From Lysobacterales bacterium (lineage in GTDB: Bacteria > Pseudomonadota > Gammaproteobacteria > Xanthomonadales > Marinicellaceae), in NCBI GenBank assembly GCA_027067055.1, contig JAMOMK010000081.1, positions 1-35,401 on the forward strand: a stretch of DNA of 35,401 bases. The letters are read 5' to 3'. Positions 895-15,298 of this stretch are shown piece after piece (within the stretch, counting starts at the first letter, position 1; each line of letters starts with the position of its first letter). The notes beneath the pieces were generated by a model, which saw only the letters and a program-made list of their open reading frames with translations, had not been told where the DNA came from and searched no databases. The position numbers were made by a program, and so were the translations under genes.

Positions 895-2256
895 TTATTG
901 CATGAGAAATACGGAACCCAGTCCTAAAAAGGATACATAGCCAACAATATCGGTGACGGTTGTTAACACTACGCCTCCAGCGATAGCGGGATCAATGGAT
1001 AGGCGACGTAAAATCAAGGGGACGATGACACCAGCGATGGCACCAGCGATAAGGTTGATGGTTAATGCCATGGCGATGACTAGCCCAATATTCCAATCGT
1101 TAAACCATAAAAAGGTGATAACAGATAAGACAATTGCCCAGATGAAACTGTTAAATATACTGATAAAAAATTCGCGCGTGAGTAAGCTCTTGGCATTGCC
1201 AAGCCCGACTTGCCCAGTTGCCATTCCACGAATCATAAGGGTTAAAGTTTGAGAGCCTGCGATACCACCCATTGAGGCTACTACAGGCATTAAAATTGCC
1301 AGTGCGACCACATGTTCGAGTGTGTCAGCGAAAAATCCTATGGCATAAGCTGCTACTAATGCCGTTAATAAATTGATGCCAAGCCAGACCGCACGTCTTT
1401 TAGATGAGATCAAAACGGGTGCAAACATATCGTCTTCTTCATCAAGACCTGCCATGCGCATAACGGTTTGCTCGGATTCATCACGTATTACATCGACAAT
1501 ATCATCAACAGTAATACGTCCAATCAAAGTGTTTTGTTCGTCAACTACAGGCGCAGAAATCCAATCGTGGTGCTCAAAATCTTGTGCTACTTCGCTAGCT
1601 GGTGTGGTCGCTAGAATGGCGGGTGATTTTAAATCGAGTATATCAGAAACCTTAGTGTTGGGATCTTTGAGTAATAAATCATTAACATCCAGTCGACCAC
1701 GATAATGCCCATCTCTACCCACAGCAAATAAATCACCCAATGGATTGGGTAATTTGCCACGCATGCGTAAATAGCGCAAAACAACATCAATAGTTACATC
1801 AGGACGTATGGTAATAACATCGGGGTTCATTAGACCGCCTGCTGAATTTTCTGGATAAGATAAAGCGCGTTTTAAAAGTTCGCGATTGTTCTTGTCCATC
1901 GAAAGAAGCAATTCATCGGTGACTTCTTTGGGTAAATCTTCGATAATATCGGCCAAATCATCAAGTTCTAAGTCAGAAGTGGCTTCTACTAGCTCTTGAT
2001 TTTCCATAGCTGCAATAAAGTCATTACGCACTTCATCGTGTAAATGGACTAAAATTTCGCCACTGTGTTCTGAATCAACTAAATCCCAAACCTTTTGTCT
2101 TTTTGTCTTGGGTAATGATTCCAAGAAAAAAGCAATCTCTGAGGCTGGAAGACTATTAATCATGCGCTCAACTTCGTGCAAACGATTGTCATCGAGTGCA
2201 GTGTTGAGAACCTGAATCTCCTTTTCGGTTGCTTCGTTTGGAACGGCTTCAGACAT
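895..2256 (-). CDS. mgtE: MgtE-family magnesium transporter
   Basis: Inner-membrane Mg2+ channel/transporter of 453 residues, the usual family length. Domains in order: a soluble superhelical MgtE_N domain (about 1-125), with repeated acidic LxxLxxxE-type helices such as DLADIIEDLPKEVTDELL; a pair of CBS domains (about 130-255); a plug helix; and a five-helix membrane domain from about 285 to the end. The membrane domain has the family signature PVVASMGGIAGSQTLTL. The last helix has LTTVTDIVGY, where the Asp matches the pore Mg2+ ligand known in MgtE. In the family the N and CBS domains close the pore when Mg2+ is high. It is divergent from rimI with 64 bases between them, and no strong ribosome binding site is visible. 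Confidence 0.95.
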   Translation of the reverse strand: MSEAVPNEATEKEIQVLNTALDDNRLHEVERMINSLPASEIAFFLESLPKTKRQKVWDLVDSEHSGEILVHLHDEVRNDFIAAMENQELVEATSDLELDDLADIIEDLPKEVTDELLLSMDKNNRELLKRALSYPENSAGGLMNPDVITIRPDVTIDVVLRYLRMRGKLPNPLGDLFAVGRDGHYRGRLDVNDLLLKDPNTKVSDILDLKSPAILATTPASEVAQDFEHHDWISAPVVDEQNTLIGRITVDDIVDVIRDESEQTVMRMAGLDEEDDMFAPVLISSKRRAVWLGINLLTALVAAYAIGFFADTLEHVVALAILMPVVASMGGIAGSQTLTLMIRGMATGQVGLGNAKSLLTREFFISIFNSFIWAIVLSVITFLWFNDWNIGLVIAMALTINLIAGAIAGVIVPLILRRLSIDPAIAGGVVLTTVTDIVGYVSFLGLGSVFLMQ

Positions 2257-2320
2257 AAGATTTATTTATTACTGTATTTCGGGTATTATATGCTAGTTTT
2301 TAACCAAGTAAACATACAAT

Positions 2321-2767
2321 ATGACAAAACTGTCTTTTGCCTCCATGAGATTGTCAGATTTAGACGAAGTGATGAGGATTGAAAAAAAGAGTTACCCTAT
2401 TGGTTGGTCAAAGTCTGTTATGCGAGATTGCATAAAATCGGATTACCATACCATTGTTTTAAAAAAGGATAAGCAAGTCATTGGTTTTGGCATTATAATG
2501 ACTGCTTTGGATGAAGCACATTTATTGAATATGTGTATTGATTCAGACTTTCAAGGCAAAGGTTATGGACGAAAGTTGTTAAAATACCTCAAAAATATCT
2601 GTCTTTGCAATCATTGCAAAATATTTTTATTGGAGGTCAGGGAGTCTAGTCTGGTGGCTCAATCCTTATACAAATCGTTCGGTTTCAAACAAATTGGTCT
2701 GCGTAAGAATTATTATAAAAAGCCGAATGGCAGAGAACACGCTATTGTCATGAATAAAAGCCTGTAA
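2321..2767 (+). CDS. rimI: Ribosomal protein S18-alanine N-acetyltransferase (RimI type)
   Basis: GNAT-fold acetyltransferase of 148 residues, the typical RimI size. Known members acetylate the N-terminal alanine of ribosomal protein S18. The acetyl-CoA pyrophosphate loop is QGKGYG (78-83), after the beta-4 strand ending in NMCIDSDF. The RimI-like block LEVRESSLVAQSLYKSFGF (104-122) contains the conserved Glu and the Tyr (117) used as general acid. The ATG at 2321 is the only good start, although no clear Shine-Dalgarno precedes it. In many gammaproteobacteria rimI follows tsaB; here it is followed by a TPR lipoprotein and a helicase gene, probably in one transcript. Other GNAT substrates cannot be excluded. 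Confidence 0.85.
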   Translation: MTKLSFASMRLSDLDEVMRIEKKSYPIGWSKSVMRDCIKSDYHTIVLKKDKQVIGFGIIMTALDEAHLLNMCIDSDFQGKGYGRKLLKYLKNICLCNHCKIFLLEVRESSLVAQSLYKSFGFKQIGLRKNYYKKPNGREHAIVMNKSL

Positions 2768-2818
2768 TGCTGAATTAATTCTGCTAAAATCCTTGTTTTC
2801 TAGATTTTGTGAGAGTTT

Positions 2819-3319
2819 GTGCGGTATTTTCTACTGGTTTTATTTGTCTTTTTGAGTTCTTGTCATATGTTGCCCAAACGCGAAGGCTCACCTGCACAAG
2901 TAAAAGACAGTTCGATTGATGCCAAAATCAACCCGCTAAACCAGCAAGAATCAGTCATAGAAACCGTGCCATTGATGAATGAAGCGGTTAAAAGTTTATA
3001 CAATTTAGCACAGCAAAATTACCAAAAAAATCAATTCAAAAAAGCCATCTCACAATTACAACGCGCCTATAGAATTCAGGTCAATTCACCCGAAGTGACA
3101 CAATTAATAGCTGAAATAAATCTGCATCAAGGCGATGCCAAACAAGCACATTATTGGGCAACAATTTCCACCCAAAATTCTCCAGCAAAAGGAAAGGTTT
3201 GCGAAAAATCTTGGCGAATACTGGCGATTGCTGCACAAATGCTGGGTTATGATGCCAATCAAGCTCTGGCACTCGAAAAAAAAGAGCAGTGCGTAGTAAA
3301 AGCACCACCGAGATACTAA
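2819..3319 (+). CDS. TPR-containing lipoprotein of unknown function
   Basis: A 166-residue protein starting at GTG 2819, with GAGAG a few bases upstream. The N-terminus is a lipoprotein signal peptide: MRYF, a hydrophobic run, then the lipobox LSSC with Cys15, so it should be acylated and anchored in an envelope membrane. After a polar linker there are about two tetratricopeptide-like helical pairs (50-125), for example LYNLAQQNYQKNQFKKAISQ and its continuation, and QAHYWATISTQNSPAK. The gene ends 4 bases before the helicase ATG, suggesting translational coupling. It may act as an envelope adaptor, but no partner is evident. Confidence 0.8.
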   Translation: MRYFLLVLFVFLSSCHMLPKREGSPAQVKDSSIDAKINPLNQQESVIETVPLMNEAVKSLYNLAQQNYQKNQFKKAISQLQRAYRIQVNSPEVTQLIAEINLHQGDAKQAHYWATISTQNSPAKGKVCEKSWRILAIAAQMLGYDANQALALEKKEQCVVKAPPRY

Positions 3320-3323
3320 TGTC

Positions 3324-5231
3324 ATGAGCGTTGTCGATATACTAGGTGAGAATGGTGTTTTTGCCAAAAAACTTGAAAACTTCAAAACCCGCGAAGTGCA
3401 AATTCAATTAGCAGATAAAATCGCACAAACAATTCAAGAAAATGGCACACTAATAGCCGAGGCAGGCACCGGCACAGGTAAAACCTTTGCTTATTTGGTT
3501 CCTGCCATTTTAAAGAACAAAAAAACCATTGTTTCTACAGGAACTAAAAACCTCCAAGAGCAGTTGTTTTACCGTGACTTGCCTAAAGTCCTAGAAATCA
3601 TGGAACTCAAGCCCAAAATACGCTTGCTCAAAGGGCGCTCAAATTATCTATGCCACCACCGCATGTATGGTGCATTGCATTCACGCATCGCACACAATCC
3701 AGATTTGGCAATCCCATTGCAAATTATAGAAAAATGGTCTCATAAAACCAAGGTAGGCGATAAAGCCGAACTTGAGGAAGTCTCGGAAAACGATTTGATT
3801 TGGCGACATGTGACATCCACTGCCGATAATTGTTTGAGCAATGAGTGCCCAAGTTATACTGAATGTTTGGTGATGAAAGCAAGGCGAAGAGCCATGGAAG
3901 CGGATATTTTGGTGGTTAATCACCATTTATTGTTTGCTGATATGGCACTCAAACAAGAGGGCTTTGGCGAATTATTACCCGATGCTGAGGTGATAATCTT
4001 GGATGAAGCACACCAAGTTCCTGATATTGCCTCCAAGTTTTTTAGCCAATCCTTTTCATCCTACCAATGCCAAGATTTACTCAATGATTGTGCCAAGGAA
4101 GCAGGTGAAGTTACAGGTGCATTTGCGGCAATTTCGGATGAACATAAGGGCGTTGAGCAGTCATTGCGTGATATTTATTTACAGTTCTCAAACATTAAAG
4201 ATTCTGATACTCTTGTGTCGTTATTAGAGAAAAAATCCAATCAAGAGCATCTTGAATTATTGCAAGATTCTTTAGAGGAATTGGCTGAAGTTTTGAAGCC
4301 ATTAGCCACTTCGTCCAAAGGTTTAGAGTCGTGTTTTATGCGTGCAGAAGCATTGGTTGATTTTATTGATGAAATTTTGGGAAAATTAAGTGCTGATTTT
4401 ATTTATTGGTACGAAAACCGCACAAAATATTTTATTTTTCACAAAACACCATTAGATATTTCGGATCCACTAACAAAGTTCCGCAACGAAAACAAAGCCG
4501 CATGGATACTCACTTCTGCGACATTAGCAGTCAATCAATCTTTTGGTCATTTTAAAAAAGAAACCGGTTTTGTCGATAGTGAAACCATGCTGGTCGATAG
4601 TCCCTTTGATTATGAAAATAATGCATTGATATATGTGCCAAAAGAAGTGCCAGATGCTAATGATTACAATTTTAATCAAGCAATTTGTGAACACATGTTG
4701 CCAATGATTAAACAAACAAAAGGTGGCATATTTTTTCTTTTCACTAGCCACCGAGCGTTAAATAATGCCGCTGGATTTTTTCAAGATAAATTGGATAAGC
4801 CCTTATTTGTTCAGGGTCAAGGTTCTCGCCATCAATTGTTGGCAGATTTTAGTGAATCAGGCAATGGGGTGTTACTAGGAGCTGCTAGTTTTTGGGAAGG
4901 GGTGGATGTGGCAGGTGATAATCTTTCTTGCGTTATCATTGACAAGCTGCCTTTTGCTCATCCTGATGACCCTGTTTTACAAGCACGAGTGAATAAAATT
5001 GTTGAAAATGGCGGTAATGCTTTTTTTGATTACCAACTACCCAAAGCGATTATTGCTCTTAAGCAGGGTGTTGGTCGTTTAATTCGTTCCGAAACAGATA
5101 AAGGCATCTTGGTCATTTGCGATAAACGCATTATTTTTAAAACATATGGCAAACAATTCATTAACAGTTTGCCCAAAATGCGCAAAACCACAAATAAAGA
5201 CAAAATAACCCAGTCATTTACAAAAATCTAA
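3324..5231 (+). CDS. yoaA: YoaA/DinG-type Fe-S ATP-dependent DNA helicase
   Basis: XPD-like superfamily 2 helicase of 635 residues. The length matches YoaA (about 636) better than DinG (about 716). Walker A is AGTGTGKT (47-54) and the DEAH box is at 227-230 (ILDEAHQVPD). Four cysteines between motifs Ia and II (C110, C170, C175, C181) are spaced as expected for the 4Fe-4S cluster of this family. Motif VI is QGVGRLIRS near the C-terminus, after FWEGVDVAGD. Family members unwind DNA 5' to 3' and take part in repair of stalled or damaged forks; YoaA partners with HolC. The ATG at 3324 is chosen because the ATG at 3319 stops after two codons. The Lys/Thr-rich tail (about 615-635) is unremarkable. 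Confidence 0.92.
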   Translation: MSVVDILGENGVFAKKLENFKTREVQIQLADKIAQTIQENGTLIAEAGTGTGKTFAYLVPAILKNKKTIVSTGTKNLQEQLFYRDLPKVLEIMELKPKIRLLKGRSNYLCHHRMYGALHSRIAHNPDLAIPLQIIEKWSHKTKVGDKAELEEVSENDLIWRHVTSTADNCLSNECPSYTECLVMKARRRAMEADILVVNHHLLFADMALKQEGFGELLPDAEVIILDEAHQVPDIASKFFSQSFSSYQCQDLLNDCAKEAGEVTGAFAAISDEHKGVEQSLRDIYLQFSNIKDSDTLVSLLEKKSNQEHLELLQDSLEELAEVLKPLATSSKGLESCFMRAEALVDFIDEILGKLSADFIYWYENRTKYFIFHKTPLDISDPLTKFRNENKAAWILTSATLAVNQSFGHFKKETGFVDSETMLVDSPFDYENNALIYVPKEVPDANDYNFNQAICEHMLPMIKQTKGGIFFLFTSHRALNNAAGFFQDKLDKPLFVQGQGSRHQLLADFSESGNGVLLGAASFWEGVDVAGDNLSCVIIDKLPFAHPDDPVLQARVNKIVENGGNAFFDYQLPKAIIALKQGVGRLIRSETDKGILVICDKRIIFKTYGKQFINSLPKMRKTTNKDKITQSFTKI

Positions 5232-5278
5232 ATCGTCAGTGCTTTTTTTATAGTGGGATTATGGTTTTATCTAAAAAA

Positions 5279-5306
5279 TTGACTTATTTTGAAATGCCCA
5301 TAATAA
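5279..5306 (+). promoter_or_regulatory. Candidate promoter for the TonB-receptor transcript
   Basis: TTGACT (5279-5284) and TAATAA (5301-5306) are 16 bases apart, giving a 5' leader of roughly 175 bases. Further down, a short palindrome GTCTATTAGAC (5413-5423) could be an operator. No Fur box was recognised. Confidence 0.35.
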
Positions 5307-5462
5307 ACATACGAAAGTAGGGGCAAATGCTATTCCCACTGAAAATAAGGTTAATATTTTGTTAAAAACATGAAAACAATCTTTTTTTTACAGGTTTAAA
5401 GTGTTAACATTCGTCTATTAGACAGGAAATCTACTAAATTATAACTTATTAAGAGGAAACTC

Positions 5463-5492
5463 ATGGAAAAATTTTTGGAGAACAATAAATGA
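5463..5492 (+). CDS. Nine-residue leader ORF overlapping the TonB-receptor start
   Basis: ATG at 5463 opens MEKFLENNK and stops at TGA 5490-5492, which overlaps the receptor ATG at 5489 as ATGA. It has its own Shine-Dalgarno-like AAGAGG a few bases upstream (5451-5456). The GGAG at 5477-5480, inside the mini-ORF, would serve the receptor. The arrangement suits translational coupling or a leader peptide. A chance ORF is possible, since it is only ten codons. Confidence 0.35.
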   Translation: MEKFLENNK

Positions 5493-8212
5493 AAATAAAA
5501 CGTAATCCTATTGCTAACGCAATAAAAATAGCCTTATATTCAGGCTTAATAGCGTCTGCCTCTCTTGCAGGAGTATCTCTTGCGCAGGAAGAGGGTGATG
5601 GTACTGACAAAGAGGAGCTTGACAAAGTTGTCGTAACAGGGTCAAGAATCTCACGCGCTCAAGTTGAAGGTGTTGAGCCCGTTCTAACAATTACTCGCGA
5701 AGACTTAGAAGATTCTGGTTTTGCATCAGTTGCAGATGTATTAAGATCTAATGCATTCAATAGCTTTGGTTCATTTCGTGAGTCATCAGGTAGTGCCGCT
5801 CAAGGTCAAGCAACATTAAGTTTGCGAGGTATAGGGTCTGGAAGAACATTAATTCTTGTCAATGGTCGACGTATGCCTGGTTCACCAGTTTTAGACGGTC
5901 AGATCCAGAACTTAAATACAATTCCCTTTGCTGCGGTTGAGAGGATAGATATTTTGTCAGATGGAGCGTCAGCGATTTATGGATCGGATGCAATTGGTGG
6001 TGTTGTAAACATTATTTTAAGAACCAATTATGAAGGAGCCTCTGTTACCGTTCGTTATGACAATCCTACTGAGCCAGGAGCTCAACAACAAGGGTATTCA
6101 GCCATCTTTGGCGGCAGTAGTGAAAGAGCTCGTTTTACGCTTTCTATGGAAGCTGACTCTAAAGATATTATCTTTTCAAGAGATCGTGATTTTTTAAGTA
6201 ATAGTTTCTTGGGTGGTGATGTAAATGATATCAATAACTATACACAAGTTTCAGTTAACTCTCGCACAATTTGGGACAATGGTTTTAACCTAACTCCAAT
6301 GATACAGGGCGAAGTTGGAAGTGATGTTTGTTCTGCTTATGGTGCTGGATTTTTGCCAAACGTCTTATTTGATTCGACATTCCCAACAGATTCTATGTGT
6401 GCTTATGACTATACAAAAATTTCTGCGGAAACTGCGTCAATAGACAGATTGTCGTTCTTTGCAAGTGCTGAGTATGATGTAAATGATACAACAACAGCAT
6501 TTGCTCAAGTTCTTTCATCAAGGGTCGAGACTTTTGGTCGCTATGCACCTGTAGCCTCAGGTTTAGTAAGATGGACTGGTCCCGATTTGCCAGCTCAAGA
6601 TATAAACTATAATGGTAGAAACCTAACCTTAAATCCTTTGATGAACGGTTGGTTTTATACATATAGATTTGATTTTACAGGTGATGGACGTGATACGACT
6701 CAAGTAGACTATCAAATGGATGCTCAAGTTGGTATGAAAGGTTATAACTATGGTGTTGAATGGCAATTTGTTTATCAATATGATTTATATGACCTGCAAG
6801 AGTGGGGTGATGGTTATGTAAATGAATTGGGCTTACGTGATGCTGCTCAAAATGGATGGGATCCAAGACATCCAGACCAATTAGGACAATATAGTGGTTT
6901 TGTAGCTCAAATGCGTGAAAATTCAAACAGACGTGCGCAAATGAAAATGCAAAGATTCGAATTTGGCGGGCAATTTGACGTAGCAAGCGCCTCAGTATTT
7001 GTAGGTGGAGAACTTCGCACGGAAGACTATTTTGACCAAGCCCAAGCACAAAATGAGGCAGGTTTAATTAGGGGAACTTCTGGTGGTTCATCTGCTGGAT
7101 CTAGAATTGCAAGAGCTGTTTTTGTTGAAGCAATGCAACCAGTAGGTGAGCAGGTTGAGCTAACTGGTGCTTTGCGCTATGATAACTATAGTGATTTTGG
7201 TAGTAATGTTTCTGGTAAGTTGGGATTAAGATACTCTCCAACTGACAATTTATTATTTAGAGCAACTTATGGTACTGGCTTTAGAGCACCTTCTTTAGAT
7301 GAACTGAATCAATCCCCATCTTTTGGTGCAACACGAGGTGCTGACGTTGTTGCTTGTCAAGCAGCTGGAATTGATTTTGTAGATTGTCGAGCTAGACAGT
7401 GGGATACATTTTATGGGGCTAATAAGAATCTAGACCCAGAAACTTCTAATCAATTTTTGGTAGGTGGTGTAGTTGATTTATCTGACTGGGCCGGGTTCAA
7501 CTTGTCTGTTTCATTAGACTATTACTATACCGAAGTTGAGGATTTGATAACAACTATAGATGGCACAACTCTTTATTTTGCTGAACTGGCGGGGCAATTG
7601 GGCGAGTTAGATGCTGCAACTAATGGTGGTTGTAATTATAGCATTGAGAGATCTGATACTGGTAGACTGGTTAGGTCTGATGTCTGCGCTATAAACTATG
7701 GCAGCTTTGACACTTCTGGACTGGATTTTAGAGTGACAATGAATTTTGACTTAGGAAATGCGGGAATTTTAGGGTTTCGTCATCAGACAAACTATGTCTT
7801 AGATTACAACTCTCAAGACTATATTGGTGGTCCTTTTTCAGATTTGACCGGAAGAAGAGGCTTGCCTCAGTTTAGATCAAACTTTGATTTGGATTGGACT
7901 TATGGAGATCATAGAGTTGCATTGAGTTCTTATTATATTCCTGGTCAAAACTTCAGATCAGTTCCTCAAGATGGTTTTGATTTAGATGATACAAATACAT
8001 TTTATAATGTAGGTACTGATCCAGATGTTTCTAGCTATTGGAATCACAATTTAGCTTATACTTATAGCACTCCTTGGAACTCAAGAATTCAAATCGGGGT
8101 AAGTAATTTGACTAATGAGTCTCCAGTACTAGATATAGAGTTATCAACAGATACATCTTTGTATCCACTTAAGTCTAGGGCTTATTACTTTCAATTTACT
8201 CAAGATTTCTAA
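5489..8212 (+). CDS. TonB-dependent outer-membrane receptor
   Basis: A 907-residue outer-membrane transporter. A signal peptide of about 32 residues ends VSLA before QEEGDG. A TonB-box-like segment follows (DKVVVTGSRI, 45-54). The plug domain (about 58-180) contains LSLRGIGSGRTLILVNGRR, then AVERIDILSDGASAIYGSDA and IGGVVNIIL, the usual plug signature. The rest is a 22-strand-type beta-barrel, including FRATYGTGFRAPSLDELNQS, ending in aromatic YYFQFTQDF with terminal Phe. The NILSDGASAIYGSDAIGGVVNIIL style is common in receptors of Xanthomonadales and Caulobacterales for complex organic substrates rather than classic siderophores. The substrate cannot be read from sequence. It is followed by a strong terminator and by an oxygenase/methyltransferase pair. 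Confidence 0.93.
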   Translation: MKIKRNPIANAIKIALYSGLIASASLAGVSLAQEEGDGTDKEELDKVVVTGSRISRAQVEGVEPVLTITREDLEDSGFASVADVLRSNAFNSFGSFRESSGSAAQGQATLSLRGIGSGRTLILVNGRRMPGSPVLDGQIQNLNTIPFAAVERIDILSDGASAIYGSDAIGGVVNIILRTNYEGASVTVRYDNPTEPGAQQQGYSAIFGGSSERARFTLSMEADSKDIIFSRDRDFLSNSFLGGDVNDINNYTQVSVNSRTIWDNGFNLTPMIQGEVGSDVCSAYGAGFLPNVLFDSTFPTDSMCAYDYTKISAETASIDRLSFFASAEYDVNDTTTAFAQVLSSRVETFGRYAPVASGLVRWTGPDLPAQDINYNGRNLTLNPLMNGWFYTYRFDFTGDGRDTTQVDYQMDAQVGMKGYNYGVEWQFVYQYDLYDLQEWGDGYVNELGLRDAAQNGWDPRHPDQLGQYSGFVAQMRENSNRRAQMKMQRFEFGGQFDVASASVFVGGELRTEDYFDQAQAQNEAGLIRGTSGGSSAGSRIARAVFVEAMQPVGEQVELTGALRYDNYSDFGSNVSGKLGLRYSPTDNLLFRATYGTGFRAPSLDELNQSPSFGATRGADVVACQAAGIDFVDCRARQWDTFYGANKNLDPETSNQFLVGGVVDLSDWAGFNLSVSLDYYYTEVEDLITTIDGTTLYFAELAGQLGELDAATNGGCNYSIERSDTGRLVRSDVCAINYGSFDTSGLDFRVTMNFDLGNAGILGFRHQTNYVLDYNSQDYIGGPFSDLTGRRGLPQFRSNFDLDWTYGDHRVALSSYYIPGQNFRSVPQDGFDLDDTNTFYNVGTDPDVSSYWNHNLAYTYSTPWNSRIQIGVSNLTNESPVLDIELSTDTSLYPLKSRAYYFQFTQDF

Positions 8213-8240
8213 ATTAAAAATTGGATAAATTAAAGTAAAA

Positions 8241-8266
8241 AGAGCCTCTAACGAGGCTCTTTTTTT
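8241..8266 (+). terminator. Rho-independent terminator after the TonB receptor
   Basis: Perfect 8-bp stem AGAGCCTC/GAGGCTCT with a TAAC loop, followed directly by six T residues. It is 28 bases past the receptor stop and separates it from the downstream oxygenase gene. Confidence 0.93.
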
Positions 8267-8339
8267 GAGTAATTTATATTATCAACAATGCTTAGTTGTG
8301 GTAAGATGTACAGTCATTAATTAAATACTGTGAAAAACT

Positions 8340-8975
8340 GTGGAATACTTAAAGGCTTTTTATACACCTATTGTTGCCAGTAGAATTGATTTGATTCAGA
8401 GTGAATATCATGCAATAAATAAGGTTATTTTTAAACTAGAGAAACTTAAATGGAAAAACAAGCAACCATCCCAAGGAATTGAGGAGGGTGTTTATGAGAG
8501 TCCTCATAGGTTGTTTCAGCGAGAAGAACCAGAAATTAAAAAAATATCAGCATTGATAACAAATAAAATTTTAGATGTAGTTTGTACGTTAAATAGTTAT
8601 AGCGGTAGACAAAGAGGTTTACTACAAACTTATGCTGCATCTTGGTTTCATATTACAAGAAAGAATGGCTTTGTTCAGCCGCATAACCACCCAAATGCTT
8701 CCTGGAGTGCAGTATACTGCACTGCTAGTGGCGAAGAGGCAGGCATTACAAAAACAGCATTAGTTTTAATGACTCCAAATAATATTCCAATGTATGTGGA
8801 TGCAGGCAATGCCAATATTAATCTTCCTATATCATCTGACACGGTAAGGTTTTATTTGAAAGAAGGCGATCTGTTGATATTTCCATCAAATCTAATGCAC
8901 TTTGTAAGCACTCACCTATCATCAAAAGAGCGGATAACAATAGCGACCAATTTTTGGTTTCAATTGAAGCAGTAG
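8340..8975 (+). CDS. Putative 2OG-Fe(II) oxygenase-like protein (TIGR02466/PF13759 type)
   Basis: A 211-residue protein starting at GTG 8340. The C-terminal half looks like the 2OG-FeII_Oxy_5 group: SWFHITRKNGFVQPHNHPNA (101-120), then SWSAVYC, a beta-strand stretch, EGDLLIFPSNLMHFVS (175-190) and KERITIATNFWF (196-207). H115 or H117 and H187 are candidate iron ligands, and R198 a candidate 2-oxoglutarate anchor. Such proteins are often found near TonB-dependent receptors, but their substrates are unknown. The N-terminal 60 residues are less typical. It ends 2 bases before the methyltransferase ATG, so the two are cotranscribed. It lies after the receptor's terminator, so it needs its own promoter or readthrough. 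Confidence 0.7.
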   Translation: MEYLKAFYTPIVASRIDLIQSEYHAINKVIFKLEKLKWKNKQPSQGIEEGVYESPHRLFQREEPEIKKISALITNKILDVVCTLNSYSGRQRGLLQTYAASWFHITRKNGFVQPHNHPNASWSAVYCTASGEEAGITKTALVLMTPNNIPMYVDAGNANINLPISSDTVRFYLKEGDLLIFPSNLMHFVSTHLSSKERITIATNFWFQLKQ

Positions 8976-8977
8976 AT

Positions 8978-9925
8978 ATGAAAACACACATCCCTCAGTG
9001 GGCACAGTATTGGAAAACAGGTGTATTAACTTCCTTACCCCAAGATTTTGAACACAACTATAGTGGAGAAATCTATGATTTTTGGTATAAGCAAGTAAAC
9101 AGTTTTGAAGACAACTCTGTTGTTCTAGATGTTTGTACAGGGAACGGAGCTATAGCTATCATGATAAAGGAAATCGCAAACAAAATCAATAAAAGGCTTA
9201 ACGTAATTGCTATAGATGGAGCAACAATAGACACTAAAACCTTAGTTAAATGCCAGCCTAAGCTTAAAAGCATTATTGAGGAAATTTCATTCATAGGGGA
9301 GGTTCAAATTGAAGAAATTGATGTTGCAATTAAAAAGCAAGTAGACTATATAGTTAGTCAATATGGAATAGAGTACTGCAAAATAGAAGTGATAGCACCA
9401 AAAATTAGTAAGATTCTTAAATCATGTGGAAAATTAATTTTTATTTCTCACGCTGCAGAAACAGATATTCATAACTATATGAAGATAGAACAGGAGCACT
9501 TTTATAAATTAAAGAAAATTGGTGTATTTAAATTATTTAAAAAATTTATTGCCAATAAAGAAAAGCCACAAAGTTTTATATCTAAACTTAACATCTGTTT
9601 GAATGAAATAGAAGACATATTTGGGAATAGTTTGAATGAATATGTTTATGAGTGGGCTCAAACTATGCAAATGTTGGCAAGAATGCCAAAACATATATTG
9701 CTTTCCAACAGAAAGCAAATAAAAGAGTTTTACTATTTGCATTTATATGCAAGAATGAGAAGTGATGATTTGCTATCAGTATCTAAGAAACTAAAAAATA
9801 ACCCGAAGTGGTATAATAAATTTATTGAGAGTGGCTTGTCACTAAAATCTCACGGAGAATTGACTTACCAAAGCCGTCATAAAGTTGGTCAATATTATGA
9901 GTTTATTCATAAAGGTGAAGAGTAA
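8978..9925 (+). CDS. Class I SAM-dependent methyltransferase, substrate unknown
   Basis: A 315-residue protein. The ATG at 8978 directly follows the oxygenase stop; a longer ORF beginning at 8954 would run back into the oxygenase coding sequence and is less likely. SAM-binding motif I is VVLDVCTGNGAIAI (48-61). It is followed by VIAID (76-80), whose Asp fits motif II, and a motif IV-like segment VDYIVSQYGIEY (122-133). The C-terminal half is helical, Lys/Ile-rich and unlike anything recognised. The gene is visibly more AT-rich than its neighbours: bases 9481-9540 are about 22 percent GC, against about 48 percent in a sampled secA line. Together with flanking IS remnants this suggests an acquired block. 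Confidence 0.72.
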   Translation: MKTHIPQWAQYWKTGVLTSLPQDFEHNYSGEIYDFWYKQVNSFEDNSVVLDVCTGNGAIAIMIKEIANKINKRLNVIAIDGATIDTKTLVKCQPKLKSIIEEISFIGEVQIEEIDVAIKKQVDYIVSQYGIEYCKIEVIAPKISKILKSCGKLIFISHAAETDIHNYMKIEQEHFYKLKKIGVFKLFKKFIANKEKPQSFISKLNICLNEIEDIFGNSLNEYVYEWAQTMQMLARMPKHILLSNRKQIKEFYYLHLYARMRSDDLLSVSKKLKNNPKWYNKFIESGLSLKSHGELTYQSRHKVGQYYEFIHKGEE

Positions 9926-9935
9926 ACAAAATAAA

Positions 9936-10205
9936 TTAATAGTTGCATTCTTCATTGTTTATACCTTTGACAAGGGTTAGTCTTGTCATTTCAATTGATC
10001 CTTCTCCAAAATAAGAGAAACGTTCATTTGGTTTCCAAGATAGGGAAATGTTGTTGTTATCGAGCTTTGTTAGAAGCATCTCGCCCCACTCTAAAAGAGT
10101 TTTTTGTTCTTGGTTGAAATTTGGTGGAAAGTTAGTGCCACTAACAAAAGTAGAGTTTAAAGAGGAGCTATTTCCTTGAACTAGTCCATTGCCAAGAAGC
10201 CAGAG
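9936..10205 (-). pseudogene. C-terminal fragment of a secreted repeat-type protein, cut by an IS end
   Basis: On the minus strand an open frame ends at 9936. Its first codons, from TTG 10241 or ATG 10232, lie inside the transposase tail and terminal repeat of the neighbouring IS256-type element, so the apparent signal-like start MKLHSLVYTL is IS sequence. The rest reads WLLGNG, GTNFPPNFNQEQ, LLEWGEMLLTKL, ISLSW, GEGSIEMTRLT and ends EECNY. The pattern W-L-x-G-x-G, FPPNF, WG, W, G-x-GS, RLT resembles the C-terminal unit of uncharacterised exported proteins seen in Marinicella and Xanthomonadales. This is recalled by eye, not checked. It is probably non-functional. Confidence 0.42.
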
Positions 10206-10658
10206 GGTGTAAACTAAACTGTGTAACTTCATTTTAGGCAATTTTAATTCTGCCCTCGAATTCTATCACAAATCTGTTCAAAGCGGGTTTCCAATTATGA
10301 ATTGCATAGTCCATTTTTTACTGGCATGTTCAACAGCTAAGAAAATGGTCTTTAATGCCGATTCATCGTGTGGAAAAACTCTTCAGTTTTTGATTGCTTT
10401 TCTGATAACTGAATTTAAAGACTCAATCGCATTTGTCGTATAAATGACTTTTCTGATGTCCGCAGGGTATTCAAAAATAGTAATTAAATTCTTCCAGTTA
10501 TTGTACCAAGATAAGTAAATTGCAAGGTATTTATCGTTCCATTTTTGTTAATTCTTTCTCGTTCATTGTGTAACCTCAATTTTGATTTTAATATTTTAAA
10601 AATTTTTCCCTCTAGGGGGAACTATTATTTGAAGTTACACAGTTAGGTTTACACTCTC
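10203..10658 (-). mobile_element. Internally deleted IS256-family element with both ends
   Basis: About 456 bases bounded by inverted repeats of about 28 bp with roughly three mismatches. Reading inward, both ends share GTGTAAAC, then AACTGTGTAACTTC. The left arm is 10203-10230 and the right arm 10631-10658. Between them lies a transposase start, eight codons, then only the C-terminal transposase region. No 8-9 bp direct repeat flanks it (AGAAGCCA on the left, CAATTTTC on the right), so a rearrangement after insertion is likely. The right end supplies the stop codon of the adjacent E2 gene. Confidence 0.8.
10234..10566 (-). pseudogene. IS256/Mutator-family transposase, internally deleted and frameshifted
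   Basis: ATG at 10564-10566 follows a good TTGAGG Shine-Dalgarno and gives MNEKELTK. It then joins, in another frame, to C-terminal transposase sequence: YLSWYNNWKN, FEYPADIRKVIYTTNAIESL, NSVIRKAIKN. An in-frame TGA follows, then RVFPHDESALKTIFLAVEHA, SKKWTM, a frameshift, and HNWKPALNRFVIEFEGRIKI ending at TAA 10234-10236. The IRKVIYTTNAIESLN block is diagnostic of IS256-family enzymes. The N-terminal catalytic residues are deleted, so the copy cannot transpose itself. Confidence 0.85.
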
Positions 10659-11836
10659 CAATTTTCTAGTGTCTCTACAAAGCAATTTAGAAACTGATTG
10701 CATTGATGTGCATCCAAAACTCGATGGTCTATTGTTAGTGAGACATAGCACATAGGTTTTATGCTAATCATGTCTTCTCCGTTGATTTCTGTAACAACAA
10801 CACGTTTTTCCATTTTGCCAATCCCTAGTATTGCTGATTGTGGTTGGTTGATTATTATTGGAGTGGCAATTAAAGAGCCACTGATGCCGTGATTGGAGAT
10901 GGTGAAAGTTCCATCTTTGACATCTGTTGGTTGCAAGGTTTTGCTGCGTGCTTTGTTAGTCAAGCGAGTGAGCTCTTGTGTGATACTTAATAAATTTCGG
11001 TTTTCGCAATTTTTTAATACGGGTACAATTAACCCATCATCAGCAAGTGATGTTCCTATACCAATATTGATATCATTGAAAATTTCAATGATATCGTTAT
11101 GTAGTTGTGAATTAATCATTGGTACAGCCTGAATAGCTGTCTTGGATGCAGCAATGAAATAAGCAGTAAAGGTTAGATTGGCTTTTTGTTCAAGGAAATG
11201 TTGTTTATTTGCCTTTCTATGAGCAATTACACGTGAAAGGTCAAGGTTGAAAACAGAGGTGACATGAGGTGCTGTATGCAATAAGCTTTGAACCATGTGT
11301 TTGGCAATGCTTTTTCGCATATTATTTAATGGTATGAGTGTACTCCTTTTGTCATTGGTGTGAGAAGTTGCGGGCTTTTGTTTTAGAAAGGCATGAATGT
11401 CACGACTGGTGACGCGGTGATCTTTGCCAGTTCCATGAATGTTTTTTATGTTAATGTTATGTTGTGAAAGTAATCGACGAACTGCTGGAGATGTTGCATT
11501 ATTGTTAATGTCAGCTTCCACCTGGTCATTACTGTTTGTAGCTTCATGAGTTTGTCTACTGGTGATTTTTTTGATTGTAGGTGATATATCTTGAACGCTT
11601 GAATCTATAACACCCAAAGCTAAATCTCCTTGTATATCGTCACCTGTTATTAAGTTAATTTTTGTTAAAACTCCAGAAACTGGGGCGACTATTTCCATCA
11701 TAACTTTATCGGTTTCTAATTCGACTAATGGCTCATTTTTTTCAATAAAGTCACCCTCATTAATCAACCATTGTGCTACAGTAGCGGTGGTTCCCTCACG
11801 TTGCTCTTCATCTAATACAATATTGACAATACTCAT
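10649..11836 (-). CDS. bkdB: 2-oxoacid dehydrogenase E2, dihydrolipoyl acyltransferase (likely branched-chain)
   Basis: E2 core of a 2-oxoacid dehydrogenase complex, 395 residues. It has an N-terminal lipoyl domain (1-76) with lipoyl Lys44 in LVELETDKVMMEI, a linker, a peripheral subunit-binding domain (about 118-150; SPAVRRLLSQHNI, VTSRDI), and a CoA acyltransferase domain with the active-site motif DHRVLD (His371, Asp375). It starts one base inside the E1 stop (TAATG), so E1 and E2 are translationally coupled. The last residues (RV) and the stop codon come from the terminal repeat of the adjacent IS256-type element, so a few native C-terminal residues seem to be lost. No E3 gene is present, so dihydrolipoamide dehydrogenase must come from elsewhere. 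Confidence 0.88.
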   Translation of the reverse strand: MSIVNIVLDEEQREGTTATVAQWLINEGDFIEKNEPLVELETDKVMMEIVAPVSGVLTKINLITGDDIQGDLALGVIDSSVQDISPTIKKITSRQTHEATNSNDQVEADINNNATSPAVRRLLSQHNINIKNIHGTGKDHRVTSRDIHAFLKQKPATSHTNDKRSTLIPLNNMRKSIAKHMVQSLLHTAPHVTSVFNLDLSRVIAHRKANKQHFLEQKANLTFTAYFIAASKTAIQAVPMINSQLHNDIIEIFNDINIGIGTSLADDGLIVPVLKNCENRNLLSITQELTRLTNKARSKTLQPTDVKDGTFTISNHGISGSLIATPIIINQPQSAILGIGKMEKRVVVTEINGEDMISIKPMCYVSLTIDHRVLDAHQCNQFLNCFVETLENWRV

Positions 11837-13926
11837 TAGGCTTTATCCAACTCAAGTATAGAGAGTAGAATTTTTTCCGTTGTAGGTACAACGGCATTCA
11901 TAAGGTTTGGTTCGTGTGGGTTGCCAATATCCGGCATAGCCAGTCTTGTAATGGGAGCATCTAAATCATAAAAGGATTCTTTTGCTAAAGTAGCTGCAAT
12001 TTCTGCCCCAAACCCTGCAGAAATATTATCCTCGTGAACGATGAGGCAGCGGTTGGTTTTTTTAACAGATTCCATCACCATGTCTTTATCCCATGGGCGC
12101 AATGTGCGTAAATCAATTAGGTCTATCGCAAGTCCTGATTGTTCAACGGCTTTATGGCAACGGTGTACCATGCCTCCCCAGGTTACCAGTGTGAGTCTAT
12201 CGCCTTGGGTGATTTTATTGGCTTTACCAAAAGGGATTATGTATTGGTCACCTGGATATTCACGGCGTGCCCACACATGATCAAGCATCTTGCGGTGTTC
12301 AAAGAAGATGGTGGGATTGTTATCACGTAAAGCGAATCGTAATAAGCCGACGGCATCTTGGGCATTGGATGGCATTGCAACTTGCCAACCAATAGCGTGA
12401 ACCCACTTAACTTCGGCAGTTTGAGAATGCCATGGATCGCCGCAACCAAAATAACCGCCAGCCATGCGCACAACCATAGGTGCGGCAAAGCGATTATTAG
12501 TGCGCCAACGCATGGAACCAATGTCGTTGAGTTGTTCTTCGGCTGGATCGGCATATTTTCTAAATTGAATTTCAGGCACAGGCAATAATCCAGCAAGAGA
12601 CATACCAAGAGCGCGCCCGATTATGCCCTCTTCAGACAAGCTAGTGTCAAAGATTCTTTGCTCACCATGCTTTTCTTGTAAACCTAGTGTGACAGCATGA
12701 ACCCCGCCCTTAACGCCAATATCTTCACCAAAAATCGCCATTTTTTTATTATTTTGCAATTCAAAATCTAAAGTTTTACGAATGGCAGTGACCATATTAA
12801 TACGACCAGGGTGAGCAATAACTTCCTGCGATGAAGGTGGAAAGACTGGTTTTGCTAGATGAATACCGCCTTGCTGTTGTAATTGCATAACGCCATCATC
12901 GTTATATTCACAGAAGGTATTGGTTGTAACGTCCTCAGGATTGGCAAAGGGTTTATTGTCCGCCTTGATAAAAGCTTGGTTAACGACCTTATTGGCTTGG
13001 TTTTCGAGATCTTGCCATTTTTCTTCAGTCATCAAGTCGTGTGAGAAAAGATGTTTTTTTAATTTTGGTAATGGATCATGGCGTTGTTCAAACGCAATTC
13101 GTTCAGCTGTTTTGTAAGTTTGTGTGTCTTGAGCAGAATGTCCGTTTAGGCGAGGGACAGTTAAACGCAACAATACGGGTTTTCTATCGAAACGCACTAC
13201 TTGATGTGCTTGTGCAACTAAATCAACAACTTGCTCGGGATTTGTTCCGTCACCACTAAAAATGGTCAAGCCTTTAAAACTGGCTAAGTTTTTTGCAATA
13301 TCTCCGCCAGGTGTTTGAAAGTCTGATGGCACAGAAATGCCGTAGCCATTGTCTTCGATATAAAATAATTGAGGCAATTCTTGCGTGGTTGCTATGGTCA
13401 AGGCAGACCAAAAACCGTTAGTTGCAACAGAACCATCACCGCCTAATACTAGACCAATTGCATCCTTCCATTTATGGTTGTTTAGCACATTATAGTAGTA
13501 TTTTGCTGCTTGTGCCCAACCAGAAACTGGCGTATATTGTGCACCAACGCCACCAGACATAGGTAATATGCAAGCACCATCGTGTTTGGGATTGTTAAAA
13601 ACAACGCCAATATCACGACCATCTGAAAACCCACCTTTTTTCATCATGGAAGCTTCTAAAGCCGTCTCAGGTGGTAAGCCCATAGCAAGTAATAAAGGGC
13701 GAGAACGGTAGTAGCCAGATACTGCATCTTTTTGCCCAATCAAACATTGCCCTAAAATAATTTGAGCCATATCATGACCGCGAGCAGAAAATTGGTATAA
13801 AACTTTCTTATTCTTAACTAAAGTATATTCTTCCAAGTCATCTAGAGCGCGTGAAATAAGTAGTTTTTGAGTAATTTCGTTCCAATCAAAAACCAAATTA
13901 GAGTTAATGTTTTCGGCAGTGTTCAT
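11836..13926 (-). CDS. bkdA: 2-oxoacid dehydrogenase E1, fused alpha and beta subunits (likely branched-chain)
   Basis: A 696-residue fusion of the two subunits of thiamine-diphosphate E1. The alpha part (1-about 330) has the TPP/Mg motif GGDGS (162-166) closed by Asn193 in YIEDNGYGIS, and SARGHDMAQ and GRDIG as in E1 alpha. The beta part (about 370-696) has MAIFGEDIGVKGGVHAVT, SLSEEGIIGRALGMSLAG, GSMRWRT and DLRTLRPWD. The enzyme decarboxylates 2-oxoacids and reductively acylates the E2 lipoyl group. The split-type alpha/beta architecture and the divergent Lrp-family gene point to branched-chain 2-oxoacids (Val/Leu/Ile catabolism, branched acyl-CoA supply) rather than pyruvate. Substrate is inferred, not proven. 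Confidence 0.88.
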   Translation of the reverse strand: MNTAENINSNLVFDWNEITQKLLISRALDDLEEYTLVKNKKVLYQFSARGHDMAQIILGQCLIGQKDAVSGYYRSRPLLLAMGLPPETALEASMMKKGGFSDGRDIGVVFNNPKHDGACILPMSGGVGAQYTPVSGWAQAAKYYYNVLNNHKWKDAIGLVLGGDGSVATNGFWSALTIATTQELPQLFYIEDNGYGISVPSDFQTPGGDIAKNLASFKGLTIFSGDGTNPEQVVDLVAQAHQVVRFDRKPVLLRLTVPRLNGHSAQDTQTYKTAERIAFEQRHDPLPKLKKHLFSHDLMTEEKWQDLENQANKVVNQAFIKADNKPFANPEDVTTNTFCEYNDDGVMQLQQQGGIHLAKPVFPPSSQEVIAHPGRINMVTAIRKTLDFELQNNKKMAIFGEDIGVKGGVHAVTLGLQEKHGEQRIFDTSLSEEGIIGRALGMSLAGLLPVPEIQFRKYADPAEEQLNDIGSMRWRTNNRFAAPMVVRMAGGYFGCGDPWHSQTAEVKWVHAIGWQVAMPSNAQDAVGLLRFALRDNNPTIFFEHRKMLDHVWARREYPGDQYIIPFGKANKITQGDRLTLVTWGGMVHRCHKAVEQSGLAIDLIDLRTLRPWDKDMVMESVKKTNRCLIVHEDNISAGFGAEIAATLAKESFYDLDAPITRLAMPDIGNPHEPNLMNAVVPTTEKILLSILELDKA

Positions 13927-13990
13927 AGGTTTTATTATTGTTCTAAGAGTTTTACTATTATGTGCCTAAACAAGAGAAATGTGCTTGCTA

Positions 13991-14011
13991 AATATACTTA
14001 ATAAATGTATT
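13991..14011. promoter_or_regulatory. Candidate Lrp-type operator between the bkd operon and its regulator
   Basis: AATATACTTAATAAATGTAT plus T is a degenerate palindrome (about 15 of 21 positions symmetrical, AT-rich centre), similar in style to Lrp/AsnC sites. It lies in the 139-base divergent space and overlaps a weak promoter-like pair, TTGCTA (13985) and TATTAA (14108 minus 100). Confidence 0.35.
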
Positions 14012-14037
14012 AAAGAGCATGGAAATTGAGTTATAAT
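14009..14037 (+). promoter_or_regulatory. Candidate promoter of the Lrp/AsnC gene
   Basis: A perfect -10 TATAAT (14032-14037) with a weak ATTAAA (14009-14014) 17 bases upstream. Transcription would start about 20 bases before the ATG at 14066. Confidence 0.5.
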
Positions 14038-14065
14038 TGAAAAACTTAAAATTATATTGCTTGAT

Positions 14066-14530
14066 ATGGATAAATACGACATTAAAATACTTGAAGAGAT
14101 ACAACGTAATGGACGCATTAGTAATAAAGAGTTGGCAGAAATTGTTAACCTTTCTTCTGCCCCGTGTTGGCGAAGAATGAATGCTTTAGAAGATCAGGGT
14201 TATATTAAAAGTTATACGGCTTTGTTAAATAAAGAAAGTGTTGGGTTAACCATCACGGCTTTTGCCCATATCAGTTTAAATGATCACCATGAAAAAACAG
14301 TGGCTGAATTTGATAACTCTATTGCTAATTGGCAAGAAGTGCAAGAGTGTCATGCGACATCTGGCGGTTATGATTATTTGTTGAAGATAGTCACAGTTGA
14401 CATGCAAGCCTACAATAACTTTATGTATGAACACTTGCTTAAGCTTAAAGGCATTCGATCAGTTAATACCAGTTTTTCCATGGTGCAAAAAAAAGTGTCA
14501 ACACAGTTGCCATTGTCCCATTTAAAATGA
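14066..14530 (+). CDS. bkdR: Lrp/AsnC-family transcriptional regulator, probable bkd regulator
   Basis: A 154-residue DNA-binding regulator. An N-terminal winged helix-turn-helix (1-55; NKELAEIVNLSSAPCWRRMN is the recognition region) is joined to a C-terminal RAM ligand/oligomer domain (about 70-145), which contains VQECHATSGGYDYLLKIV. ATG 14066 matches the normal family start MDKYDIKIL; an in-frame TTG at 14057 is possible. It is divergent from the E1-E2 operon. In Pseudomonas the Lrp-family BkdR lies divergent from bkdA1 and activates it in response to branched-chain amino acids. By analogy this gene likely senses such a ligand; the symbol is inferred from context. Confidence 0.85.
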   Translation: MDKYDIKILEEIQRNGRISNKELAEIVNLSSAPCWRRMNALEDQGYIKSYTALLNKESVGLTITAFAHISLNDHHEKTVAEFDNSIANWQEVQECHATSGGYDYLLKIVTVDMQAYNNFMYEHLLKLKGIRSVNTSFSMVQKKVSTQLPLSHLK

Positions 14531-14556
14531 AAATGGCTGATATTAGCAGCCATTTT
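14530..14556. terminator. Bidirectional terminator between convergent lrp-type and DUF481 genes
   Basis: Perfect 10-bp stem AAAATGGCTG/CAGCCATTTT with a 7-base loop, starting at the last base of the regulator stop. Its A-rich and T-rich flanks let it act on both strands. The DUF481 stop lies about 25 bases further on. Confidence 0.8.
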
Positions 14557-14578
14557 CCAGAATTCAAATTTTAATAAT

Positions 14579-15298
14579 TTAGAAAGTATAACCTAAGTTA
14601 ATAGCGAATAATGTATCTGTGTTATCAAACCCAGCAGGTACATCTGTATTGTGCTTGATTTGATGAACAAAATTAACATTGACTTTATCGCTAACCTTAA
14701 GCGATAAACCTGCATCGTTTTGAAAGTAGGTGTTGTCGCTAATTGCTTCAACAATTAAAACATCAATAAACTGCATAGTGTCAGTTAGTTGGCGCATGTA
14801 GTCGACTTTCCCTGTAAAAGCAATACCAGAAACATCAGAGCGATCAATATCTAAAGCTTGAACCTTATAACCAACACCAACCTCTGTAATAAGTCTTTTC
14901 GTCTCAGTGTCATAAAATTTATGACCCCAGCCTGCACTAGTGGTCATTGTATAATCAAAGGCAGAGAAGTTGTCTTTTTCATATCTTGAGCCATAAAAAA
15001 TATAGTCATTATCACTCAATTTATAACCTGTTTTAGATGAAAGAATGTATCTTTCAGCCGTGTCAATGTTATTGGCAGACGCACGTAGGATATCTAGGCC
15101 TATGTCGCTAATCCATTTGCCCGTTTCGTACTTAACTTTTAATCCAGTAGTAAGGCTTTCGGTGTCAGTATTGCCGCCCGTTGTAGAAAAGCCTAAGTAA
15201 CCAGTTGAACCTGTCCACTTGCTTTTAGGTGCATCATCAGCAAGTGCTACAGTAACGCTACCTAATAATAGTCCTGTTATTAACATCGTTTTTTTCAT
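14579..15298 (-). CDS. DUF481-family outer-membrane protein (YdiY-like)
   Basis: A 239-residue protein. Its signal peptide (MKKTMLITGLLLGSVTVALA) is cleaved before DDAPKSK. The mature part is a run of alternating beta strands: TGYLGFSTTGGNTDTESLTT at 34-53, then KYETGKW, YIFYGSRYEKDNF, GWGHKFYDTETKRLITEVGV. It ends INLGYTF with terminal Phe, as in outer-membrane barrels. GNTDTxS is the recurring DUF481 hallmark. The function of the family is unknown; E. coli YdiY is linked to acid stress only loosely. It is monocistronic, with a strong promoter (15329-15357). Confidence 0.85.
   Translation of the reverse strand: MKKTMLITGLLLGSVTVALADDAPKSKWTGSTGYLGFSTTGGNTDTESLTTGLKVKYETGKWISDIGLDILRASANNIDTAERYILSSKTGYKLSDNDYIFYGSRYEKDNFSAFDYTMTTSAGWGHKFYDTETKRLITEVGVGYKVQALDIDRSDVSGIAFTGKVDYMRQLTDTMQFIDVLIVEAISDNTYFQNDAGLSLKVSDKVNVNFVHQIKHNTDVPAGFDNTDTLFAINLGYTF

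Follow-up and report, generated by a model that had tools for sequence, protein, structure and literature searches.

The window analysed here is the 35,401-nucleotide contig JAMOMK010000081.1 (C81) within the 3.42-Mb assembly GCA_027067055.1 of a Lysobacterales bacterium, and its forward strand carries a gene for a TonB-dependent receptor (TBDR) followed by two genes for candidate tailoring enzymes, termed O and M below. The receptor (907 aa, 5489–8212) belongs to a clade with the motif FGRYAP and has both the barrel domain (PF00593, 114 bits, cut-off 27) and the plug domain (PF07715, 75.4 bits, cut-off 23.9). A hairpin resembling an intrinsic terminator, with a 12-pair stem and a T-run, occupies 8237–8264 between the receptor stop and O, so that the terminated 907-residue receptor described in an earlier note, written from the DNA alone, is indeed present. 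O (211 aa, 8340–8975) starts with GTG and is a PF13759 2-oxoglutarate (2OG)-Fe(II)-oxygenase-like protein with H115, H117, H187 and R198, while M (315 aa, 8978–9925) is a class I S-adenosylmethionine (SAM)-dependent methyltransferase with a helical lid. The open reading frame (ORF) of M was listed from a TTG at 8954, which would overlap O; the in-frame ATG at 8978, two bases past the O stop, is the likely start because the alignment of the M family begins there. All three genes are syntenic in a sister genome (G009) between the same flanking genes, with identities of 90% for the receptor, 74% for O and 57% for M.

The gene pair downstream of the receptor, an oxygenase-like protein with a methyltransferase, is confirmed by the profile score of O and by the modelled fold of M. 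O reaches 54.3 bits against PF13759 (cut-off 27) and stays below the cut-off of TIGR02466 (41.4 versus 62.5 bits). H115, H117, H187 and R198 are invariant in all ten aligned O proteins, and the AlphaFold2 model (predicted local distance difference test score, pLDDT, 87.6) is a double-stranded β-helix. These features place O in PF13759 with an HxH...H and Arg set on a predicted double-stranded β-helix, and its activity is predicted to be Fe(II)/2OG-dependent; the iron site suggested earlier (H115/H117–H187) is upheld by conservation and modelled fold, not by geometry. The nearest structures, 2rg4 and 3bvc (Z 18.8 over 176 and 177 residues), are named only as uncharacterized proteins; they share with O the passing PF13759 score, the fold and, in the profile alignment, the HxH...H and R positions, and O differs in its TIGR02466 score and in being paired with M and a TBDR. 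Next come the Pseudomonas putida prolyl-4-hydroxylase (Z 17.1; 16.8 with EF-Tu) and PHD-type hydroxylases (16.6 and below). The protein prolyl hydroxylases, including PHD2, thus share the double-stranded β-helix (Z 15–17), but among the matches listed O is only 12–15% identical to them, and the second metal-site residue of PHD2 is Asp where O has His. A second kind of O (33–40% identical; L107–L110 and L112) has other surroundings, which its loci share and which lack a TBDR (clusters c20, c21, c26 and c27), partly within the same genus.

Structure prediction also bore out the methyltransferase fold of M, with a confident model (pLDDT 95.2) of a Rossmann core whose last two strands are preceded by a lid of helices at about 163–284. 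Together with SAM motif I, in which D51 and G55 are invariant, this fold identifies M as a class I enzyme. Across 64 M sequences W8, W12, Y28, W36, E132, Y133, H158 and R261 are likewise invariant, and N56 and D80 are at least 90% conserved. The suggestion that the C-terminal half of M is unlike any family was half correct: this region comprises the helical lid, which is part of the methyltransferase fold, together with the final two strands, and its key residues are conserved across the family, and the fold searches listed no close homologue of the lid, which makes an unlisted fold possible. The best structure matches by Z are Coq5 (17.8), MtfA (17.6) and LahSB (16.1), among many class I methyltransferases, and none reveals the substrate. 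M lies under the cut-off of every Pfam and NCBIfam model listed, with no Pfam family at E 0.001.

A search with the window M protein (E 1e-5) returned relatives in 46 of 101 genomes, its own included, and a profile scan found M at 75 named loci, spread over Marinicella, Wenzhouxiangella, Kangiellaceae, Pleionea, Luteimonas, Pseudoxanthomonas, Shewanella, Microbulbifer, Burkholderiales and others. The closest named relatives are from two Lysobacterales metagenome-assembled genomes (57% and 40% identity) and Marinicella species. By sequence, M is a conserved methyltransferase family that has no curated name. M gave no tblastn match in phage or plasmid collections and no confirmed relative in viral contigs; a single-protein scan of viral contigs with O, able to pick up close relatives only, yielded none either. 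A phage or plasmid origin was rejected on these searches. O does match phrog_81 (E 8e-25), and the PADLOC match of M to a defence system is weak ('mad2', 23 bits).

M had also been described as AT-rich relative to its neighbours. The figure is correct, with a GC content of 31.0% against 39.3% for the receptor, 35.4% for O and 35–42% in the majority of the 24 genes of the window that were measured; the G009 copy has 27%. Reading this as a sign of odd origin does not hold. At third codon positions the GC content of M (28.2%) lies within the range of those 24 genes (24–39%), and the deficit resides in positions 1 and 2, in step with the high Lys (12.1%) and Ile (11.7%) content of the protein. Base composition is therefore uninformative on origin, and foreign acquisition of M inferred from it was rejected.

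Linkage of M to TBDRs was counted in two overlapping samples, one of 48 M copies (the window and L062–L106) and one of 73 loci on genome contigs (the window and 72 named loci). Three of 76 loci, with less than 1.5 kb upstream, were dropped before the second count, and at L186 the weaker of two M matches was used. The counts are profile matches on six-frame ORFs, adopted because longest-ORF calling gave antisense false ORFs in high-GC loci, and the TBDR profile, built from this receptor type, may miss distant TBDRs. A TBDR lies less than 400 bp from 21 of the 48 copies and less than 3.2 kb from 32, with seven more at 3.4–5.4 kb. In the second sample a same-strand TBDR immediately precedes 35 M genes (gaps of 65–208 bp), and 48 have one within 2.9 kb. 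By arithmetic from the 11 TBDRs (PF00593) of the window's own genome, about 1% of that genome lies within 400 bp of such a gene and about 3% within 3.2 kb. The association of M with TBDRs is real and recurrent, as the receptor neighbourhood suggested earlier would have it, and exceeds the base rate by a wide margin across several taxa and gene orders.

O and M also meet repeatedly. Among the 101 genomes O is found in 41, M in 46 and both in 21, and in nine of these 21 the two genes are at most 1 kb apart, either on the same strand (G000, G001, G009 and G016) or tail to tail (G064, G065, G071, G077 and G089); in the other 12 they are apart. Further cases of O with M occur among the named loci (L145, L153, L158, L159 and L170), so the idea that the two are never found together fails. 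Culturable relatives show a comparable layout beside a TonB receptor, for instance Marinicella litoralis KMM 3900 (L124) with M and Wenzhouxiangella sp. XN79A (L144) with both M and O.

The linked receptors share the FGRYAP motif (residues 349–354 in the window receptor) and C281/C304. As a DNA pattern, FGRYAP has a single exact match in the window's own genome, the window receptor itself. The pattern occurs in 44 of the 101 genomes, namely 37 of 46 with M and seven of 55 without (Fisher p 3e-12, uncorrected for phylogeny), and a reversed-pattern control, found in 24 genomes (9/46 with M, 15/55 without), showed no such link. Total matches were 63 in the 44 genomes versus 30 in the 24 genomes of the control; the pattern thus also matches by chance. 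Nine matched places held no receptor ORF (L259, L260, L261, L262, L273, L277, L280, L281 and L290), and for this reason confirmed receptors are given beside raw matches: on inspection a motif receptor is present in 37 of the 46 genomes with M and in two of the 55 without (G028 and G095). Exact matching misses variants of FGRYAP. Within the genus of the window genome, motif and M are present in the same six of 11 genomes. This co-occurrence bears on the partnership of receptor and M, not on the substrate.

Of the 54 exact-motif receptors in a receptor tree, 34 are accompanied by M, O, a sulfotransferase, a B12-radical-SAM protein or a further 2OG oxygenase; among 21 receptors lacking the exact motif, eight have M, O or a sulfotransferase close by and one has a halogenase. 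An initial contrast of 53 linked with 19 unlinked receptors was biased because most receptors had been collected through M, and the notion that FGRYAP exclusively marks enzyme-linked receptors was abandoned when the wider sample gave 20 of 54 without a tailoring neighbour. P193, R233 and R345 are present in all 14 receptors with O versus 23–28% of 69 others; O is confined to few clades, and receptor residues such as these as markers of O are unsupported.

The enzymes encoded near these receptors include sulfotransferases with tetratricopeptide repeats (TPR; PF13469), B12-radical-SAM proteins, a 2OG oxygenase of the PF13640/PF13661 type and a TPR-fused PF13759 protein. TPR repeats occur in the neighbouring sulfotransferases scanned, in one PF13759 protein and in one glycosyltransferase, which suggests that these enzymes bind polypeptide chains. 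In G014 a TPR-sulfotransferase is naturally fused to M (L091, 5183–7456; domains by Pfam), and a protein of this kind and similar size occurs in G027 (L090, 2345–4624; M domain by profile only). Both proteins adjoin a 2OG oxygenase as well as another, free-standing M, the order in G014 being TBDR, M, 2OG oxygenase (of a Pfam family other than PF13759) and sulfotransferase–M fusion. A tryptophan halogenase (PF04820; L156, 5246–6775) lies amid M, a sulfotransferase, a B12-radical-SAM protein and a TBDR, and a halogenase-profile match was also seen near a TBDR in G012 (L223).

Since genes for O and M turn up next to receptors of this type in other bacteria too, the pair probably decorates the receptor or something that the receptor handles. 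The gene content, predicted folds, conserved sites, linkage and co-occurrence described above lead us to infer the activities of both enzymes, an order of steps and a polypeptide substrate. We tentatively propose, as a reading that could well prove wrong, that O and M are the tailoring set of one TBDR clade and that the receptor before export is the leading candidate for their substrate. In this scheme O, a cytoplasmic Fe(II)/2OG enzyme with a prolyl-hydroxylase fold, would hydroxylate a residue of a polypeptide, and M would use SAM to methylate the same or a nearby residue; at related loci the neighbourhood also holds TPR-sulfotransferases, B12-radical-SAM proteins or a further 2OG oxygenase. 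The polypeptide may be the unfolded receptor in the cytoplasm, ahead of Sec export, and the receptor would then arrive in the outer membrane bearing modified surface loops. We favour the receptor because no precursor peptide is seen in the gap between receptor and O, because the linkage is to the receptor clade itself, and because methylation of outer-membrane proteins has precedents in OmpB and AtaA (PMC11784438). It is less likely than not, yet worth considering, that receptors of this clade are themselves decorated post-translationally by dedicated enzymes encoded next to them (hydroxylated and methylated, and in relatives sulfated or C-methylated), perhaps shifting ligand choice or hiding loops from phages or bacteriocins.

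Several observations weigh against this proposal. The terminator-like hairpin 3′ of the receptor implies that the receptor and O–M are probably separate transcripts. At L149, L150 and L182, among others, M was found without a TBDR nearby, the L150 gene lying, by eye, between truB and pnp, and nine genomes have M and lack the FGRYAP pattern. Conversely, 15 of the 20 motif receptors that have no tailoring gene nearby are on loci of at least 12 kb; five of the 20 sit on stretches of less than 6 kb, where the view is incomplete. In G023 one motif receptor is accompanied by M and five others by none of these genes, and one M among several receptors would be consistent with action in trans on a feature that the receptors have in common or, just as well, on a ligand chemistry that they share. 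Among the receptor columns examined (part of 23), no residue was shown to track O independently of phylogeny, and with only five independent receptor pairs there are too few to decide such tracking. Outer-membrane lysine methyltransferases (Rickettsia PKMT1/2 and Acinetobacter KmtA) methylate outer-membrane proteins, as is proposed for M, and PKMT1 is the first Foldseek match of M by E-value. The TM-score is only 0.32, however, and any likeness may be that of the common Rossmann core; no such enzyme is among the best 50 matches by Z or the 60 listed of 112 profile matches.

The pair could instead act on a peptide or a metallophore-like compound, made and secreted by the cell and retaken through this receptor, an alternative that we think rather unlikely and yet take seriously. 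Modification of an imported compound or of a peptide, as suggested earlier, is still among the candidate readings of the substrate. Methanobactin enters through a TonB receptor whose gene accompanies the tailoring genes, and in such loci, some of which include a sulfotransferase, the TBDR adjoins tailoring enzymes as it does in the window; the enzymes themselves are other than those found here. The mix of 2OG oxygenase, methyltransferase, sulfotransferase, B12-radical-SAM protein and the L156 halogenase is typical of peptide natural products, and MtfA and LahSB stand among the structure matches of M. Matches under cut-off point the same way: the radical-SAM protein at L072 is nearest KedN5 (239 bits, cut-off 700), the 2OG oxygenase at L091 weakly resembles the peptide oxygenase YhhC (21 bits, cut-off 150) and the S9 peptidase at L070 weakly resembles the lasso isopeptidase model (54 bits, cut-off 400). 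Against a peptide product, no convincing precursor ORF was seen in the 127 bp that separate O from the receptor, the gap measures 65–208 bp where M directly follows the receptor, and in the neighbourhoods read no synthetase or peptide exporter was recognised, with no systematic search aimed at them.

Two further accounts dispense with tailoring of this sort. O and M might serve the use of a nutrient imported by the receptor, their co-location reflecting co-regulated uptake and metabolism. TBDR genes often adjoin catabolic genes for their ligand, S9 and S8 peptidases occur near some of these loci, and the window carries a 2-oxoacid dehydrogenase E1/E2 pair (10649–13926) on the strand opposite to O and M. 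We nevertheless hold this to be improbable: sulfotransferases, methyltransferases and radical-SAM proteins add groups at a cost that would be unusual for catabolism, and among the ten window proteins scanned (895–15298) no further enzyme was seen that would complete such a pathway with O and M. Little credence is likewise given to the idea that the genes are mere neighbours, M being a general methyltransferase, for example of quinones or lipids, that stayed beside a TBDR by chance. The NCBIfam models commonest across the family are indeed ubiE-like, matching 57 of 64 members at E 0.001, the best Z belongs to Coq5, and some M genes have no TBDR nearby; yet the window M scores only about 20 bits against ubiE-type models, far below their cut-offs of 158–351, and chance retention sits poorly with linkage so far above the base rate across taxa and gene orders.

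The unnamed M family and some PF13759-type oxygenases gain a regular partner in a single clade of TonB receptors, which makes their substrate a question open to experiment. Should the receptor be the substrate, transporters of the outer membrane would be added to the small number of proteins there that are known to be enzymatically methylated, and the set would show how a receptor can be retuned without a change to its gene; if a peptide is the substrate, the receptor clade would be a beacon for new peptide products. Among the open-licence PubMed Central papers listed in literature searches, none appeared from its title and abstract opening to deal with this gene set.

Downstream of M, on the reverse strand, a 101-aa ORF (9936–10241) resembles the C-terminal end of an FG-GAP/ASPIC-UnbV protein. 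The full-length protein (878 aa) is in the same place in G009 (L062, 9857–12493), and the window copy looks like a remnant. Beside it, at about 10242–10640 on the same strand, three-frame translation revealed a broken stretch resembling the end of a mutator-type (IS256-like) transposase; part of this stretch matches one other site in the same genome (110 bp at C25, 85% alike).

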